Both the position numbers and the translations under genes were made by a program. Below are positions 1 to 16,572 of a stretch of DNA of 38,008 nt, piece by piece. The notes below the pieces were generated by a model, which did no database searches, was not told the origin of the DNA, and was given only the letters and a program-made list of their open reading frames with translations. Source of the stretch: Terriglobia bacterium (lineage in GTDB: Bacteria > Acidobacteriota > Terriglobia > Acidiferrales > UBA7541); assembly GCA_020072805.1 (NCBI GenBank), contig JAIQGC010000036.1, positions 1 to 38,008 of the forward strand, given 5' to 3'. How positions within the stretch are numbered: the stretch's first letter is position 1; each line of letters opens with the position of its first letter.

Positions 1-1056
1 GAAGCGAGTAACCACATAGAGGTCCTGATCGGACCATTCGTAGCGCGGCATTTTGCTCTTGGGGAGAAATTCCTGGGGATTGCGCAGCCAGGCGGCCAGC
101 CAATCGGGATTGACTTTGCTGCCGACCTTGGTGAGTTCGGGCCCGATGTCTCCGCCAATGAGTTTGGTTTCGCCGGCGCGGGTCGCGGCCAACGGATGGC
201 AGGTGGTGCAAAACATCTGGCGGAAGCGTGCTTCGCCCTGATCGGCGAGATCCGGGCTGTTTTGCAGGGCCGCGACAACTTTGGGATCGAAAACGTAGGG
301 TTCCACCGGCTTGCCGCGCAGGGAGCTCAGGTAGGCGACCAGGCTGCGAAGTTCGTCTTCGCTGAGGCGGAACCGGGGCATGCGCGGCTCCATCTGGTAG
401 CCGCTGACGACGGTATTGCCGGAATCATCGAGGAGCGTGCGCGGCTCTTTCAGCCACTTGTAGAGCCATTCGGGGCTAACTTTGCCGGCAATGTCGGTGA
501 GGTCCGGGCCGAGCATGGCCGGGCGGTCGATGCCATCCATGCGGTGGCAGCCGACGCAACGGAATTCGCTGAGCAGAAGGCGTCCACGGTTGAGCTGGGG
601 AGCGTCCGGAAGATCGGCACGATGGCAGAGACCGCAGGAAGCCTGAAGATAACGGGCGGGAAGAAGAGTCTGCGCCGGGGCGAGTGCAGGCTGGTGGGCC
701 TGGTCTTTTTGCGCGGCGTCGCCCTGACCGCGGTGACAAACGGTACAGCCCCAGTCCTTCCCGTGATGCGGGACGAGCGGGTCCACGCGGCCGGGTTGCT
801 GAAACGAAAGCTGCGCGGAACTAGGCGGTGGGACTTGGGGATGACACGTCACACAGCGTTCGGCGGCGTTTAACTGCGGCGTCCAAAGCTGGCTGGCCGG
901 CGCGGAGTTTTCCTGAGCGAATGCAGCCTGGGCGGACAGCAGGAGCGCGGCGCAGCACAGGGGAGCGGAAAGGAACAAGGAGAGGCGGCGGAAGCGCGGC
1001 GAGGAAGAAAGCTGGGAAGACTTTAGAATCGGCGGGATTTTGCGCGTGGTCTCCAT
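1..1056 (-). CDS. Multiheme c-type cytochrome (C-terminus beyond window)
   Basis: Read from the reverse strand, the frame is open for 352 codons and runs off the left edge. The first residues are basic and are followed by a hydrophobic signal segment ending near AAFAQE (about residue 48), so the protein is exported. Five CXXCH haem sites are visible: CVTCH (68-72), CTVCH (104-108), CGLCH (141-145), CVGCH (167-171) and CTTCH (283-287). The last two each begin a class-I cytochrome c-like domain and are followed by likely axial Met residues in MPRF and KMPRY. The first three sit in a less typical N-terminal part. ATG at 1056 is preceded by AGAGGA at good spacing; ATG at 1071 is an in-frame alternative. 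The gene lies 44 nt after the NrfD gene and is probably co-transcribed. It probably carries electrons from the FeS/NrfD complex. More haems may lie beyond the edge. Confidence 0.85.
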   Translation of the reverse strand, partial: METTRKIPPILKSSQLSSSPRFRRLSLFLSAPLCCAALLLSAQAAFAQENSAPASQLWTPQLNAAERCVTCHPQVPPPSSAQLSFQQPGRVDPLVPHHGKDWGCTVCHRGQGDAAQKDQAHQPALAPAQTLLPARYLQASCGLCHRADLPDAPQLNRGRLLLSEFRCVGCHRMDGIDRPAMLGPDLTDIAGKVSPEWLYKWLKEPRTLLDDSGNTVVSGYQMEPRMPRFRLSEDELRSLVAYLSSLRGKPVEPYVFDPKVVAALQNSPDLADQGEARFRQMFCTTCHPLAATRAGETKLIGGDIGPELTKVGSKVNPDWLAAWLRNPQEFLPKSKMPRYEWSDQDLYVVTRF

Positions 1057-1100
1057 CCGGTTTCCTCTCATCGGTCGCCTGCCTGGAGCATCCTTGCCGG

Positions 1101-3140
1101 TCAGTGAGGCTGTTTGTCCCGGTCCGAGCGGCGCATGCGCCAGAGAATCAGGTAGCCAAAGGCGTAGATGAACACGAGCCACATGAAGCCATAAAACATG
1201 ACGAAGGGAAGCCCGATGGCGGCGGTGGCGTAGGGAGCGATAAGCACGCCGGCGGTGGGCAGCGCGGGAGCCGGGCGCGCGCCAAAATCCACGGGGATCT
1301 CCGCTCGGGCGCCGCCGAAGGAGTCATCGCCGCCATAGGCCACCAGCAAGGGATATTTGCCGTAGCGATGGTCGCGAACAATGAGTTCGGCTTTTCCTTC
1401 TTCGTTGGTGGGGCGGCTGCCGTATTGCACCAGGCCAAAGGAGGTGCGCAGGGAAAAGCTGACGGGTTGCATAGCTACCGGAGCGCCGCTCGCGTCCTTT
1501 AAGGTGGCTTTCAGGGAGATGACGGAAGGCGGCGTTTCGTTTTCGGCATTTTTGGAGCCGAAGGAGAGATGACCGAAGAGTTGCGAAAGGCCGTTCTGCA
1601 CGCGCCCGGCCGTGAAGGAATCCGGCGGGCCATCTTCCGCGGAGGAAGCGGAAAGTTTGTCCGAAGGGAGAGCTTGCCATTCGAGAGAAAGCGCGGTGGG
1701 CGCGGGTTTGCGGGGCTTGGGGGATTCGCCCGCATGGGCCGTGCCAGCGGCGAGAGAGAGCGTGAGCAGAATGACGGAGATGGAGGAGATGGAACCCCAG
1801 TTAGAAGAAGGGGACGCGGCGGGTGCTGCTTCCGTCATCGCCGGTTCGGGTTCGCGAGTCTCCCAGATGGAGACCATGGGGAAGAGCTTGGAGAAGAGGC
1901 CATAGATCAGCAGAAAAATAGCGATGGCGGCCGCAGTGACGGACCATTCCACCCAGGTGGGGCGATAGTGCGTCCATTCCCAGGGAATTCTCTGCCCGGG
2001 AAGGAAGGGGCTGGAGAGCGTGGGAACGACGATGAGATAGCGCTTGGCCCAGGCGCCGATAATGGCCAGGAAGGAAGCCAGGGCGACGCCGGGGATGGTA
2101 AGAGATTTGTGGCTGCGCAGGCCCAGCACGGCGATGAGCAGCAGCAGGGGAAGGAAAACGCCGATGGCCTGCACGGTCCAGAACATGGGGGCGTAATCGC
2201 CGAAGAAGAGCCGGGTGAGATATTCCTTTTCGATGCCCTCAAATTTGTAGCCCATGGTCAGGTATTCGTTGATGTTGAAATATAGATACAGCATGGCGAA
2301 GGAGAGCAGGAGCAGGCCGAGATTGCGGAAATGCACGGGTTCGAGATAGTCCTGCAAGCGAAGGACGCGGCGCAGGACGAACATGGAGAAGATCACCGCG
2401 GCCGCGCCGGAATAGATGGCGCCGACAACAAAATAAGGGCCGAAGATGCTGCTGTTCCATCCGGGGCGCAGGGTCATGGCAAAAATCCAGGAGACGACGG
2501 TGTGCACGGAGATGGCCAGAGGAATGATGACCACGGCCATGATGGAGATGGCGCGCTCGAGCAGGGTCCACTGCGTCGCGCTGCCGGTCCAGCCCAGGGA
2601 AAGTTTTTTGTAGAGGCGGCGGCGCCACGCGCCCAGAGAGGACTGCTCGGCGAGCAAGGCGAAATCGGGAATCATGGGGAGATAGAGATAGAGGATGCAG
2701 CCGGTGAGATAGGTGGAGACGGATAGGACGTCCCAGAGAATGGGCGATTGAATGCGGCCGTAGCGGAAGAGGTTGAGCATGCGGTCGGGGCGGCCGAGGT
2801 CGATGATGACCATGGGCGCGCCGATGCACAGGGCGAAGACGGTGATGGCCTCGGCGAGGCGGGTGATGGGGCGCCGCCATTCGGTTTCGGTGACGCGGAG
2901 GATGGCGGAAATCAGCGTGCCGGCATGGCTGATGCCGATGAAGAAGACGAAGTTGGTGATATACAGACCCCAGGAAACTTCATCGCGCATGCCGGTGACG
3001 ATGAGGCCGTGGCGAAGCTGGTGCACGTAGGCGTAGAGGCCCCAGAGCACGATGGCCAGCAGGAAAGCGATCCACTGGTAAAACCGGGGCGAAGCGACGT
3101 TGAGGGTGCTGAGCAGGTGTGCTTCTCGTTTGGAAATCAC
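1101..3140 (-). CDS. NrfD/PsrC-type quinol-oxidoreductase membrane subunit with C-terminal Ig-like extension
   Basis: Residues 1-430 form a polytopic membrane protein with about ten hydrophobic segments. They resemble the NrfD/PsrC/DsrP/ActC family, which exchanges electrons between quinones and a periplasmic iron-sulfur partner. Family members are usually 300-480 residues; this one has 679. The extra part starts with a hydrophobic stretch at about 450-470 that ends in GTAHAGES and looks like a signal peptide. A soluble region follows, including an Ig-like beta stretch (about 540-620), and then a final membrane segment (about 632-665) with a basic tail. The ATG overlaps the stop of the ferredoxin gene by 4 nt (ATGA), which implies translational coupling. 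The membrane core is certain from composition. The family assignment is strong given the ferredoxin neighbour. The role of the extension is unknown. Confidence 0.85.
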   Translation of the reverse strand: MISKREAHLLSTLNVASPRFYQWIAFLLAIVLWGLYAYVHQLRHGLIVTGMRDEVSWGLYITNFVFFIGISHAGTLISAILRVTETEWRRPITRLAEAITVFALCIGAPMVIIDLGRPDRMLNLFRYGRIQSPILWDVLSVSTYLTGCILYLYLPMIPDFALLAEQSSLGAWRRRLYKKLSLGWTGSATQWTLLERAISIMAVVIIPLAISVHTVVSWIFAMTLRPGWNSSIFGPYFVVGAIYSGAAAVIFSMFVLRRVLRLQDYLEPVHFRNLGLLLLSFAMLYLYFNINEYLTMGYKFEGIEKEYLTRLFFGDYAPMFWTVQAIGVFLPLLLLIAVLGLRSHKSLTIPGVALASFLAIIGAWAKRYLIVVPTLSSPFLPGQRIPWEWTHYRPTWVEWSVTAAAIAIFLLIYGLFSKLFPMVSIWETREPEPAMTEAAPAASPSSNWGSISSISVILLTLSLAAGTAHAGESPKPRKPAPTALSLEWQALPSDKLSASSAEDGPPDSFTAGRVQNGLSQLFGHLSFGSKNAENETPPSVISLKATLKDASGAPVAMQPVSFSLRTSFGLVQYGSRPTNEEGKAELIVRDHRYGKYPLLVAYGGDDSFGGARAEIPVDFGARPAPALPTAGVLIAPYATAAIGLPFVMFYGFMWLVFIYAFGYLILWRMRRSDRDKQPH

Positions 3141-3955
3141 GAATGCATCTCCAGTGCCTTCTTTTCATCGGGCGTGGGATATTTCCGGCTGGCCGGAGGA
3201 AGGTAATAGACGCGCGGCTCGGTGCCCAGCTCTTCAAGGAGGCGGAAGGCGGCGCCGCGCTTGGCGATTTTGGTAAAGGGAATGGTTTCGCCCTTGGAGT
3301 TGGTGACCCCGTCTTCCATTTCGTCGCCGAAATAGACGGCGCCCATTTTGCAGCCCTGGGCGCAGGCGGGGAGTTTTCCTTCGCGCAGCATGTGCGGGCA
3401 GAAGATGCATTTTTCGACGACGCCCTTGCGGTGCGGGTAGTTGTATTCCATGGAATAGGGCTGGGAAAGCTCCGCGGCGGTGTGCGGCGGCTCGCCCCAA
3501 TTGAAGGCGCGCGCGGAATAGGGGCATTGCGCGATGCAGTTGCGGCAGCCGATGCAGCGCTCCTGGTCCATCATGACGATGCCGTCGGTGCGCTTGAAGG
3601 TGGCGCCGACGGGACAGCCGCGCACGCAGGGGGGGTTATCGCACTGCATGCAGGGGCGGGCCAGGAAGTAGCGGCCCGCGGCGGGATTGTCCACGACTTC
3701 GAACACCTTGACCCATTCCTGCATGGGCGGAACAAAGTGCATGGCGCCGCAGGCGCGCGTGCAATCCCGGCAGCCGTCGCATTTGGCCAGGTCAATCACC
3801 ATGACCCATTTCTGATTGGTGGGAGCCACCGAACGCGCCGGAAGCACTTCGCGGAAGACCGTGGCGGAGATGCCCTTCACGACGGCCCAGGAAGCGACGA
3901 TGGCGCCGGTTCCGCGAGCCAGGAATTGGAAAAAACTTCTACGCGGAAGCGTCAT
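3137..3955 (-). CDS. Tat-exported four-cluster [4Fe-4S] ferredoxin subunit (NrfC/PsrB/DsrO-like)
   Basis: The N-terminus has a twin-arginine signal (RRSFFQF followed by a hydrophobic stretch), so the folded protein should be exported. Sixteen cysteines fall in four groups: 59/62/65/69, 102/105/110/114, 134/137/140/144 and 183/186/198/202. This is the arrangement of the electron-transfer subunit that docks on NrfD-type membrane proteins. The length of 272 residues is usual for the family. The gene starts 9 nt after the cupredoxin stop and overlaps the NrfD start. No molybdopterin catalytic subunit is seen in the cluster, so the protein may simply link quinol oxidation to the cytochrome and cupredoxin. 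Which named complex it belongs to (Nrf, Dsr, Hmc or alternative complex III-like) cannot be settled from this window. Confidence 0.9.
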   Translation of the reverse strand: MTLPRRSFFQFLARGTGAIVASWAVVKGISATVFREVLPARSVAPTNQKWVMVIDLAKCDGCRDCTRACGAMHFVPPMQEWVKVFEVVDNPAAGRYFLARPCMQCDNPPCVRGCPVGATFKRTDGIVMMDQERCIGCRNCIAQCPYSARAFNWGEPPHTAAELSQPYSMEYNYPHRKGVVEKCIFCPHMLREGKLPACAQGCKMGAVYFGDEMEDGVTNSKGETIPFTKIAKRGAAFRLLEELGTEPRVYYLPPASRKYPTPDEKKALEMHS

Positions 3956-3964
3956 GGATTGTCC

Positions 3965-4381
3965 TCACTGGGTAACCACCAGATTCATTCGCATGTCATC
4001 GTGCCCGTCGCCGCATTTCACAGTGCACTCGATCAGGTATTCTCCGGGGTCGGCGGGCGCCACCAGGGTGAAGTCCTGCACGCCCTCTTTCAGGCGCAGG
4101 TCCCAGCCCTGGTCTTTCAGTTCCTTGATCGTGAAACTGTGGACGGTTCCGTCCTTGTCCCACTCACCGGCCTTGTGCGCCGTGATATGCAGACGCAGAA
4201 CCTCCCCGGCCTTTACGGTGATGACCGGCTTGGCCTGCCCGGGGATCTTGAAACGGTTGTCCTTGTCCGCGGTTACGTTGATGATCTTCGGCGCGCCGCG
4301 AGCCACCCGAGGGGTCTGGCCCAGAAGCAAGAACCCGCCGAGCACCACGCTGCCTGCCAGGAAGTACCGGGAGAAACGCAT
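3965..4381 (-). CDS. Small exported cupredoxin with CuA-type ligand pattern
   Basis: The protein has 138 residues, with a signal-type hydrophobic N-terminus (about 5-29) and a single cupredoxin domain. The C-terminal motif CTVKCGDGHDDM gives C119-x3-C123-x3-H127-x2-M130, and an upstream histidine lies at 81 (TVHSF). This matches the binuclear CuA spacing of cytochrome oxidase subunit II and nitrous oxide reductase rather than a type-1 blue copper site. No transmembrane helices of a normal CoxB are present. A strong Shine-Dalgarno (GGAGGTGAG) precedes the ATG. It is the first gene of the cluster with the ferredoxin, NrfD and cytochrome, so it probably acts as periplasmic electron carrier or acceptor. 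Copper binding is inferred from the motif. Confidence 0.8.
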   Translation of the reverse strand: MRFSRYFLAGSVVLGGFLLLGQTPRVARGAPKIINVTADKDNRFKIPGQAKPVITVKAGEVLRLHITAHKAGEWDKDGTVHSFTIKELKDQGWDLRLKEGVQDFTLVAPADPGEYLIECTVKCGDGHDDMRMNLVVTQ

Positions 4382-5086: not shown

Positions 5087-5161
<75 letters not shown>

Positions 5162-14164: not shown

Positions 14165-14932
14165 TTAAGGACGGACATAGCCGGGGCTGGCGGGTGGAAC
14201 GTAATCCTGTCCGTATTTATTTTTGTGGGACAGCGTGAACTGGGGATTCTCGGCGAGTTCGATCGGGTCCAGCGTGTGGGCGGTCTCCGAAATCGTCACA
14301 ACCCGCTCCAACTTTTTCAGCTCTTCCACGCTGCTCCGCTCATACCACACGTGCAAGCGGTAGCTTCCCGCCACCACATCGCGCAGCGTCACCCGCCCGG
14401 AGCGTTCGGAAACGGCAAAGTATGGCGTGGGGACCGCCACGACAATCGCGCTCATCTCCGGGTGAATATTGCAAAACAAGAAGCTCACACCCGCGCGATC
14501 AAAATGCACGGTATGGCTGGTCCCTGCTTCGTAGAGACCCAGGTCAAAGCGCTTGCCGTTGAACAGCGAAAAGACATTGTGAAAAAAAGGATCCTTGTTG
14601 GGAAACTGCACCTCGGCGCCGGTCTGCACAACCAGAAGATGCGGCTCGAAACTCTTGTTTTGCTGGGTCAGGCGCAGCGCTTGTCCTGTGCGCGGCGCGC
14701 CCGGCGGAACTTCCGCGGACGGCTCCAGCGGCGTAAGCCAGACCACCACGTTCGAGGCATCGGCCAGGCGTTCACCTCCGTCCTTCTCCCCGCCCGCTTT
14801 GTGCTTCACGATGGACACTTCCCCGCTGACGGCCAGGCGCTGTGCGGCCGCCGCGCCTGCCCCGGCGCAGAAACAGATCCCTCCAAGGCATATCCCCTTC
14901 CGGAAGATCCGTGTCCACTGTGCTGTGCGCAT
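14165..14932 (-). CDS. Secreted plastocyanin-like (type-1 copper) protein
   Basis: The protein has 255 residues with a signal peptide ending near AGAAAAQ. The central cupredoxin domain shows H118 (FFHNV), then C154-x2-H157-x2-M160 in FCNIHPEM, the type-1 blue copper pattern. It is followed by a small beta domain (about 170-215) resembling carboxypeptidase-regulatory/Ig folds. Proteins of this build are often annotated as methylamine utilisation or plastocyanin-like. The ATG overlaps the porin stop by one base (TGATG), so translation is coupled. The longer open frame to 15772 runs against the porin in another frame and is discarded. It is the third gene of the kinase-porin-cupredoxin operon. 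A role in electron transfer or copper handling is inferred. Confidence 0.8.
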   Translation of the reverse strand: MRTAQWTRIFRKGICLGGICFCAGAGAAAAQRLAVSGEVSIVKHKAGGEKDGGERLADASNVVVWLTPLEPSAEVPPGAPRTGQALRLTQQNKSFEPHLLVVQTGAEVQFPNKDPFFHNVFSLFNGKRFDLGLYEAGTSHTVHFDRAGVSFLFCNIHPEMSAIVVAVPTPYFAVSERSGRVTLRDVVAGSYRLHVWYERSSVEELKKLERVVTISETAHTLDPIELAENPQFTLSHKNKYGQDYVPPASPGYVRP

Positions 14933-16530
14933 CAGAATGTGTACCCCAGAACCACGTTCAGGTGGTTCGCCGTATTGAATTCGCCGTAACTCTCCGTGGT
15001 GCGCAGGTGGCGGTACTCCACAGAAAAAAGCACATCGGAGCGCGGCTGATAAATAAAATTCGCCAGGGTCGCTTGGTTCCGCGCCAGCACGGACTCGTAG
15101 AAAATCGGCAGGGAAGAAAACAGGCGGATCTGGCTCGCAAAGGGATTGTCCTGCCCGTAGGCGGCGTTGATTTCGAATTTGGCCCGGGGCTTGAATTTCA
15201 GCTGCACCCAACCGCCCATCGAGTTCAGCCCCTGCACCATCGTCGCCGGGTCCGCGAGCAGCCCGCTCACGAGCACCGTCTGGCCGATGGCTCCGCCCAG
15301 GCCTCCCACGGCGCGGCCGCGGTAAAACTCCCCGCTGAGGTCGAAGAATTTTCCAAGCGGCAGCAGCGCGTCCGCGGTTCCCGTCCAGGCATCCACGCTG
15401 CGTCCCCATCCCCAATCCTGGCGGGCATAATAACCGCCCACGCCAGCGCTCACGCTCCGCCCGAAAAACGGACGGCTCCAGGCCACCCGCGCGGCGTAAG
15501 CCGGCTGGTCGGACTTCTCGCCGTTCGTAGGCGCGCGGAAATATTCGTTCGCGGGCAGTTCCCCTGAAATCGAATCCAGAATGCCGCCTTGCAGCAGCAA
15601 GCTGCTGGAGCCCGGCAACCCAACGCGATGCTCGATGCGCACCTGCGGCGTCCAGCTCCACAAGGCCCCGGCATAGGAAAACGCGGGAGCGGCGAGAGAA
15701 GCGATGGACGAAGGCGCCAGCGGCGCGAAAAACAGGTGATCCTGCCCCGCCACCAGGGACGTATGGGCCCAATCCAGGCGAATCGTGCCGGTGCGCAGTC
15801 TCATCAGCCCCGTCGAGTTTCCGTAAGGCACTCCGGGAAAGCCCGCCGCAAAATCGAATTTCAAATCGGCGCTGCTGCGCGCCCCGGCGATGTCCGGCCC
15901 AAATACCTGCAACCCAATCTGCGACTGCCGCAGAGAGCCTCCGAAAGCTCCTTTCGAATCGAGTGCCTGCGGGGCAACTGCGAACTGGGGAAAATCCTGA
16001 TTGTCCACCGCGCCGCGATTGCCATAGAGATTCAGCAGCACGATCCCGGAAAGCCGCAGCCGGTACTTCGACCCGCTTTCCACCTTGGTCTGAACCTGAT
16101 CGTTGATCTTGCCGTCGGCCAGCTCCTGATTCTCTTCCAGCCGGTCGAGGCGTTCCGGGACGCTCAACCCCTGCCCGGGCGCGGGACCACCGGCCGCTCC
16201 CGGGGTCACCGGAAAGACTGCCTCCTGCGGCGGCGCGGGCGGCGCTTGCTGCCCCCGGACCAGCTCCAGCTCCCGCCGCAGCGCCAGCACTTCCTCCCGC
16301 AATCCCTGATCTTCACTGCGCAGTTCGCTCATCTGCCCGTGCAAGGCCTGGACCTGCGCCTGCACTTCGTGCAGCGTTTCCACAAGCAACTTCAGTTCTG
16401 TTGCCGCGGACGCGGCCGTGGCGGCCTGCGCCGGCGCCTCCTGCGCCCGCGCGGAAGCCGCGCTCAGCAGCAACAATCCTCCGGCGACGCACATCCGCAT
16501 ACGGCTTCTCCTGCTGCCCTTGCTTCGCAT
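14932..16530 (-). CDS. Outer-membrane porin-like beta-barrel with N-terminal coiled coil
   Basis: The protein has 532 residues from ATG 16530, chosen because AGGAGG sits 5 nt before it; ATG 16551 lacks a ribosome site. A signal peptide ends near ASARAQE. Residues about 40-95 are a heptad-like coiled coil (LVETLHEVQAQVQALHGQ), then a Pro/Gly linker. The rest is alternating polar/aromatic beta strands ending in an aromatic residue (VLGYTF), the usual signal for outer-membrane barrel insertion. Coiled-coil-anchored porins of this kind are seen in several Gram-negative phyla. It follows the sensor kinase by 42 nt and precedes the cupredoxin, so expression may respond to the kinase. The transported solute is unknown. 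Confidence 0.82.
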   Translation of the reverse strand: MRSKGSRRSRMRMCVAGGLLLLSAASARAQEAPAQAATAASAATELKLLVETLHEVQAQVQALHGQMSELRSEDQGLREEVLALRRELELVRGQQAPPAPPQEAVFPVTPGAAGGPAPGQGLSVPERLDRLEENQELADGKINDQVQTKVESGSKYRLRLSGIVLLNLYGNRGAVDNQDFPQFAVAPQALDSKGAFGGSLRQSQIGLQVFGPDIAGARSSADLKFDFAAGFPGVPYGNSTGLMRLRTGTIRLDWAHTSLVAGQDHLFFAPLAPSSIASLAAPAFSYAGALWSWTPQVRIEHRVGLPGSSSLLLQGGILDSISGELPANEYFRAPTNGEKSDQPAYAARVAWSRPFFGRSVSAGVGGYYARQDWGWGRSVDAWTGTADALLPLGKFFDLSGEFYRGRAVGGLGGAIGQTVLVSGLLADPATMVQGLNSMGGWVQLKFKPRAKFEINAAYGQDNPFASQIRLFSSLPIFYESVLARNQATLANFIYQPRSDVLFSVEYRHLRTTESYGEFNTANHLNVVLGYTF

Positions 16531-16572
16531 CCAGGCCTCCTCTCTCCGCATATTTGCAGCCCGCTGAAACCC

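Follow-up and report, generated by a model that had tools for sequence, protein, structure and literature searches.

The contig JAIQGC010000036.1 of a soil acidobacterium (Terriglobia bacterium, assembly GCA_020072805.1, here genome G000; 3.98 Mb in 157 contigs) carries at its left end a compact gene module for electron transfer. The window, by which we mean the whole stretch of 38,008 nucleotides (nt) that was analysed, is the complete contig C122; base 1 is a contig end, and the cytochrome gene of the module is therefore cut. The open reading frame (ORF) list places four genes on the minus strand, in this order:

3965–4381, minus strand: candidate exported CuA-type cupredoxin, 138 amino acids (aa) (ORF; CoxB and Cupredoxin_1 scores below cut-off; conserved candidate ligands)
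3137–3955, minus strand: twin-arginine translocation (Tat)-type periplasmic iron–sulphur (FeS) protein, 272 aa, 16 Cys, DsrO-like (ORF; DsrO profile; best PDB chain 2vpw_B)
1101–3140, minus strand: NrfD-type membrane protein with an immunoglobulin (Ig)-like domain and a C-terminal helix, 679 aa (Pfam, AlphaFold2 (AF2), Foldseek)
1–1071, minus strand: octahaem cytochrome c, N-terminal portion with five of its eight CXXCH motifs (ORF; orthologue match)

The initial annotation had described four co-directional genes, and all of them are present. The whole cluster is intact, in the same order, in two genomes of the same genus (G007 and G009); kept at 76–95% identity there, the order cannot be put down to chance. 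The orthologues are 90–91% identical for CuA (138 aa), 93–95% for FeS (272 aa), 86% for NrfD–Ig (680 aa) and 76% for the cytochrome over the window's part. The annotated 9-nt spacing between the CuA and FeS genes and the 4 nt shared by the FeS and NrfD reading frames stand; the 44-nt gap between NrfD and the cytochrome applies from the METTRK start and shrinks to 29 nt if the start is set by the orthologue match (1–1071).

The 138-aa protein appears to be a CuA-type cupredoxin with a candidate copper site formed by H81, C119, C123, H127 and M130. We read this pattern against what we take to be the five side-chain ligands of CuA, H...CxxxCxxxHxxM. All five residues are invariant across five acidobacterial copies, one of which (L041) has an extra residue between the Cys residues, and they line up with COX2 of the same genome in an alignment. 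A CuA-like domain at the Chloroflexota locus L062 has all five ligands in a loop one residue shorter. Family profiles stay below their cut-offs (CoxB, 21 bits against 147.7; Cupredoxin_1, 20.1 bits against 27), and a PDB sequence search with the protein returned nothing at E 0.1.

The second gene encodes the Tat ferredoxin that had been annotated, with 16 Cys residues, four predicted [4Fe–4S] clusters and an RR motif within PRRSFFQF, which we take to be the Tat motif. Its top NCBIfam score is for DsrO (179.7 bits, below the cut-off of 200), QrcC comes next, and the HmcB profile scores 71.7 bits against a cut-off of 420. The best PDB chain, 2vpw_B, is labelled ‘NRFC PROTEIN’, and the protein also matches the FeS part of ActB, a subunit of alternative complex III (ACIII). 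In Bacteroidota relatives (for example L146, L142 and L137), the first cluster motif lacks its second Cys in 13 of 14 FeS proteins, which read CKNARKC where the window protein reads CDGCRDC; to judge by this motif, they might carry a [3Fe–4S] cluster.

The third protein has the annotated NrfD core (about residues 1–440; Pfam NrfD, 134.6 bits) but is not a bare NrfD, because its 679 aa extend over an Ig-like domain and one more helix at the C terminus. An AF2 model of modest confidence (mean predicted local distance difference test (pLDDT) score 65.8) places strands at 540–616 and a helix at 637–675; the Big_1 profile scores 28.1 bits on the Ig-like region, below its cut-off of 34.9. Around residues 453–463, a hydrophobic stretch with AHA-G behind it resembles a relic signal peptide, which would suggest that NrfD acquired a once independent secreted protein by fusion. 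The top NCBIfam model is DsrP (136.3 bits, below the cut-off of 350). In Foldseek, the best match of the model is ActC (6btm_C, E 1.2e-17), with 8k9e_C, 6lod_C and 6f0k_C matching to E 2.4e-15, and the core is nearest to ActC in both sequence and fold.

Compared with R. marinus ActC, the window protein retains S164 (as S132), D169 (as D137) and R395 (as R367), and the position of H139 is taken by D114, an Asp as in DsrP. D114, S132, D137 and R367 are invariant in nine sequences from three phyla, two of them from molybdenum-bearing Chloroflexota loci. By alignment, the window NrfD keeps most of the predicted quinone-site residues, including the conserved Ser and the acid in transmembrane helix 2 (TMH2). 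PMC8076601, the source of the ActC positions, gives Asp at this TMH2 position in DsrP, QrcD, HybB and NhcC, and a quinone-site Ser in every NrfD-like subunit except ActF. On the possible pumping of protons by NrfD, PMC13059093 lends no support to the gate function once proposed for a QrcD residue.

The cytochrome had been credited with at least five haems. The window part has five CXXCH motifs, and the intact orthologues in G007 and G009 (701/702 aa) have eight, laid out as three closely spaced N-terminal motifs followed by five class-I-type haem domains. Four of these five domains have MPx[FY] after the haem, presumably the usual position of the Met ligand. The strongest Pfam matches are class-I cytochrome c and CBB3, with FixO next. 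Towards the N terminus, Cytochrome_C7 (33.5 bits, cut-off 24.8) and Cytochrom_c3_2 (25.1 bits, cut-off 25) match as well. Among the 10 sequences matched in the PDB at E 1e-3 were oxidase-type, NorC-like, SCO/cytochrome and dihaem chains, and no octahaem reductase.

The missing C-terminal part (orthologue residues 457–698) lies at the end of contig C135 (G000:C135:25751–26476, minus strand) and is 81–83% identical to the orthologues, compared with 62% for a paralogue. C135 therefore probably adjoins the window on its left, with about 91 codons unassembled between the two. Beyond the fragment, C135 encodes an Rrf2-type regulator, a 499-aa protein, a 209-aa cupredoxin-like protein and a 630-aa FeS/pyridine-nucleotide protein, and further on a Rieske protein, cytochrome b6, subunit IV and a second octahaem cytochrome, which is 60% identical to the window's cytochrome part. 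G007 and G009 each have their two octahaem loci on separate contigs. The 209-aa protein (L005:13886–14515) is amicyanin/plastocyanin-like and adjoins the 499-aa protein; a protein 33% identical to it is encoded within window positions 14267–16551, beside a 539-aa protein without a family match.

Searching 61 relatives for the octahaem cytochrome at E 1e-60 gave 22 match rows in 17 genomes; four of these rows belong to the module itself (one each in G007 and G009, and the two fragments in G000). A cytochrome b gene lies upstream in all ten loci checked among the other 18, nine of them also with subunit IV and one with a divergent cytochrome b and a Rieske protein. Cytochromes of this type are thus often encoded behind a cytochrome b complex, and the NrfD module of this genus has one of its own. 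This association is the main argument for a quinol-oxidizing role of the module.

The octahaem might instead be catalytic or face outwards, in extracellular electron transfer or as an Mcc-like reductase working with the copper protein, which we regard as quite unlikely. Eight haems beside FeS and NrfD recall MccACD, which has eight haems according to PMC8076601. The Cytochrome_C7 match is above its cut-off, and the MtrC/MtrF outer-membrane domain scores 34.9 bits in the C135 paralogue, above the cut-off of 30 that the module's own octahaem misses at 22.7 bits. Outer-membrane candidates also lie nearby. The 499-aa protein of C135 (L005:14573–16072), about 1.2 kb beyond the octahaem fragment and between the two octahaem loci, has one N-terminal CXXCH and no Pfam or NCBIfam match; it is reminiscent of cytochrome-porins. 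In G007, a TonB-type outer-membrane receptor is encoded about 1 kb after the octahaem, but G009 has a histidine kinase at that place. The module's octahaem is also mainly of class I, its best matches being class-I cytochrome c and CBB3 and then FixO, and the PDB matches hold no octahaem reductase.

Related gene sets occur in three phyla. In a census with the FeS protein as query (E 1e-55), matches were found in 3 of 396 Acidobacteriota, 18 of 301 Chloroflexota and 7 of 296 Bacteroidota genomes, each sample including a centre genome known to have the gene. Neighbourhoods were examined for 21 of the 29 Chloroflexota FeS matches and all ten Bacteroidota matches. In total, 41 loci without a molybdenum subunit (molybdenum-free; 7 in Acidobacteriota, 21 in Chloroflexota and 13 in Bacteroidota) were compared with 17 ACIII or ACIII-like controls; most of the former were picked by FeS E-value, and the sorting into the two groups was done after gene content had been seen. 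Of the 41 molybdenum-free loci, 38 have an Ig-like and transmembrane (Ig/TM) domain, either behind NrfD or fused to it, compared with none of the 17 controls; 19 of the 41 loci served to train the Ig profile, and the other 19 matches are independent. Three loci lack the domain: the contigs of L111 and L135 break off within NrfD or shortly behind it, and L138 is a short contig with FeS and no NrfD. Conversely, an ActB-type subunit stands beside NrfD in 0 of 41 molybdenum-free loci, several of which are cut by contig ends, and in 16 of 17 controls, seven of which trained the ActB profile. The profile left 40 of the 41 loci blank and gave one weak 45-bit match at the edge of L109, on the opposite strand; in the seventeenth control (L047), the contig begins just before NrfD.

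The core set without an ActB-type subunit is found repeatedly in Acidobacteriota, Chloroflexota and Bacteroidota, and the exit carrier varies. In Acidobacteriota, the carriers are CuA with octahaem (the window, G007 and G009) or CuA with tetrahaem (L069), and the CuA gene stands before FeS in five copies. At the Chloroflexota loci L062, L107 and L125, a CuA-like domain and the Ig/TM domain form one polypeptide after NrfD, and other loci of this phylum have mono- or dihaem cytochromes c or a two-domain cupredoxin (L109 and L118). In Bacteroidota, 10 of the 13 loci have a monohaem cytochrome c with the module; one locus of this phylum, L057, joins haem c and Ig/TM in a single polypeptide, and genes for a cbb3 oxidase (a COX1/FixO fusion, FixP and FixG) come next. 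CuA-pattern matches within the FeS proteins of L144, L137 and L136 were excluded from these counts. NrfD–Ig fusions also occur in Chloroflexota (L112 and L117), where they apparently arose independently of the acidobacterial one. Four Chloroflexota loci (L107, L108, L110 and L062) have two uncharacterized exported proteins (about 190–270 aa and about 500–550 aa) downstream of NrfD; those of L062 gave no convincing family match.

The CuA protein could in principle have an unrelated function, for instance in delivering copper or assembling an oxidase, with its gene simply lying beside the others. A distant CuA-motif protein in L045 does lie near a 490-aa, 13-Cys protein that we take to resemble an oxidase assembly factor. 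The recurrent position of CuA ahead of FeS in Acidobacteriota and the three Chloroflexota fusions to Ig/TM nevertheless make this very unlikely.

An NrfD tree, rooted at the midpoint on the long DsrP branch, was built after 17 of 90 collected rows had been left out (12 further ACIII-type, four DsrP and one distant). NrfD proteins of the acidobacterial CuA sets form one clade (nine rows, support 100/99), ACIII-type NrfD another (19 rows, 100/99), and six acidobacterial DsrP rows sit on a long branch (100/100). With DsrP outermost, the molybdenum-free sets fall outside the ACIII-type clade and are paraphyletic on the best tree. A single molybdenum-free clade is also compatible with the data (approximately unbiased test, p-AU 0.107); as it is not rejected, we make no evolutionary claim from the paraphyly.

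The module belongs to the NrfD/FeS family and to none of the named complexes that we tested. ACIII, DsrMKJOP, Nhc/Hmc and Mcc each have features for which the module was tested and which it does not show. With ACIII (ActABCDEF), the module has in common the ActC-type NrfD fold, an FeS protein like the FeS part of ActB and a proposed quinol:electron-carrier role. It differs in lacking the molybdopterin-like part of ActB, in having Asp instead of His139 and in the added CuA and Ig/TM parts; the intact G007 and G009 clusters have a single NrfD (no ActF) and an octahaem rather than an ActA-type pentahaem. DsrOP resembles the module in its best-scoring NCBIfam models (DsrO for FeS and DsrP for NrfD) and in the TMH2 Asp, but in contrast to DsrMKJOP both module proteins fall under the curated cut-offs, and the long branch separates the six acidobacterial DsrP rows. 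No further dsr gene was noticed beside the module, and no search was aimed at dsr genes; DsrP scores above cut-off in 32 of 149 sampled Acidobacteriota, and G000 is not one of the 32. Nhc, Hmc and Ohc likewise combine a multihaem cytochrome with FeS and NrfD in the absence of molybdenum; relative to Nhc and Hmc, the module has a cytochrome mainly of class-I domains, with the C7 and c3-type matches at its N-terminal end, an HmcB score below cut-off and the added CuA and Ig/TM. MccACD also combines an octahaem with FeS and NrfD, and the bc operon of C135 has a paralogous octahaem, but there Rieske and cytochrome b take the place of FeS and NrfD.

The initial annotation had called a stand-alone CuA protein at the head of the operon unusual. 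CuA and the Ig/TM domain are indeed the unusual parts of the module; FeS–NrfD–multihaem sets without molybdenum were already known (Nhc and Mcc; PMC8076601). PMC10732223 reports NrfD clusters in metagenome-assembled genomes of Planctomycetota and KSB1 that match no described complex and, as here, comprise a multihaem cytochrome, FeS and NrfD. No description of the gene set turned up in a search of the open PMC literature, which does not cover subscription papers and is no proof of absence.

The claim that the module has no molybdenum subunit stands in part. No ActB-type subunit was found beside the G007 and G009 clusters within the stretch searched, and none was noticed to the left of base 1 with C135 placed there. 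Nor was a molybdopterin-domain gene seen in the window's own flank (ORF list), and the gene tested on that side of CuA in G007 encodes a glycosyltransferase. In G009, however, the strand opposite to that of CuA carries, about 1.3 kb away, a molybdopterin-domain gene (Oxidored_molyb, 105 bits). Its divergent, sulfite-oxidase-type product and a ferric-reductase-like membrane partner (L040:3868–5471), with an Rrf2 gene between the pair and CuA, presumably resemble MsrPQ. Neither this molybdopterin-domain gene nor the TonB receptor gene of G007 is common to the flanks seen in the three genomes.

We consider it rather likely that the module is a quinol:CuA/cytochrome c oxidoreductase that contains no molybdenum and plays a role like that of complex III. 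The quinol substrate, probably menaquinol, would be oxidized at a periplasm-side site in NrfD (D114, S132 and D137). Electrons would then pass through the four FeS clusters of the Tat-exported subunit to the CuA protein, which may be held near the Ig domain, and from there along the octahaem, through the three close haems and then the five class-I-type domains, towards an oxidase. We infer complex formation, copper and haem loading, the direction of flow, the type of quinone, proton movement by NrfD and the final acceptor. Quinone-site residues and the cytochrome type that follows cytochrome b agree with the quinol:cytochrome/cupredoxin oxidoreductase that had been suggested; the G009 molybdopterin-domain gene does not. 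Of the acceptors put forward, a terminal oxidase was seen as a neighbour only at L057, a distant relative, and the hints at an extracellular acceptor are weak.

Electrons could flow in reverse, from a periplasmic donor through octahaem and CuA to FeS, with quinone reduced at NrfD as in Qrc and Nhc. QrcABCD, a cytochrome c3:menaquinone oxidoreductase according to PMC13059093, is a precedent. The FeS profile scores, led by DsrO and then QrcC, and the Asp that the TMH2 quinone position shares with DsrP, QrcD and NhcC, point the same way. CuA and class-I haems usually have high potentials, so reduction of quinone from them would be uphill. Among the relatives, moreover, the carriers are of the cupredoxin or monohaem c kind, in one case next to a cbb3 oxidase, and in the ten of 18 other loci that were checked the octahaem follows cytochrome b. 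Reverse flow is unlikely on balance.

Several further observations weigh against a quinol-oxidizing module with a CuA exit. The CuA fold found no structural support: an AF2 model from a three-row alignment reached pLDDT 56, its structure comparison with the PDB gave no meaningful match, and profile comparison with COX2 was weak (probability 5%, E 0.007). The CuA assignment therefore rests on the residue pattern. The ligand Met is replaced by Leu in L107 and L125, and the position of ActC D253 is Ile (I219) in the window NrfD. Qrc-type FeS subunits serve quinone reduction. The octahaem is not a constant partner, as G047 has NrfD–Ig and CuA with no octahaem match, and the L069 module has a tetrahaem in its place. 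Finally, G000 has a bc operon and two clusters of ACIII type besides the module.

Around the module, a tRNA-Lys (CTT) gene lies upstream of CuA at window positions 5087–5161 on the minus strand. An Rrf2-type regulator is encoded directly upstream of CuA in G007 and G009 (L039 and L040, about 6.05–6.6 kb), and that of G000 is at L005:16097–16603, beside the octahaem end. In G047, the ends of contigs C105 and C14 (L041 and L042) overlap by exactly 87 bases. If they adjoin, the order would be FeS–NrfD, an opposite-strand gene that we take to be ArsR-like, and CuA–FeS–NrfD–NrfD–NrfD, giving four NrfD–Ig copies in one genome.

ACIII replaces complex III in many bacteria; its large molybdopterin-like subunit carries no molybdenum, and its origin is unclear. 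Tentatively, and with less confidence than in the function of the module itself, we suggest that such sets in three phyla, each made of an FeS protein, an NrfD and an Ig/TM subunit, form a distinct class of quinol oxidoreductases resembling complex III, in which CuA, a cupredoxin, and a monohaem or octahaem c are interchangeable as exits. ACIII may have evolved from this class when the molybdopterin-like subunit was acquired. We know of no earlier example of a CuA protein as the exit of a quinol oxidoreductase rather than the entry of an oxidase. If these proposals are correct, the module would provide a minimal system for testing quinol oxidation and energy coupling by NrfD, and would be a candidate intermediate in the evolution of ACIII.

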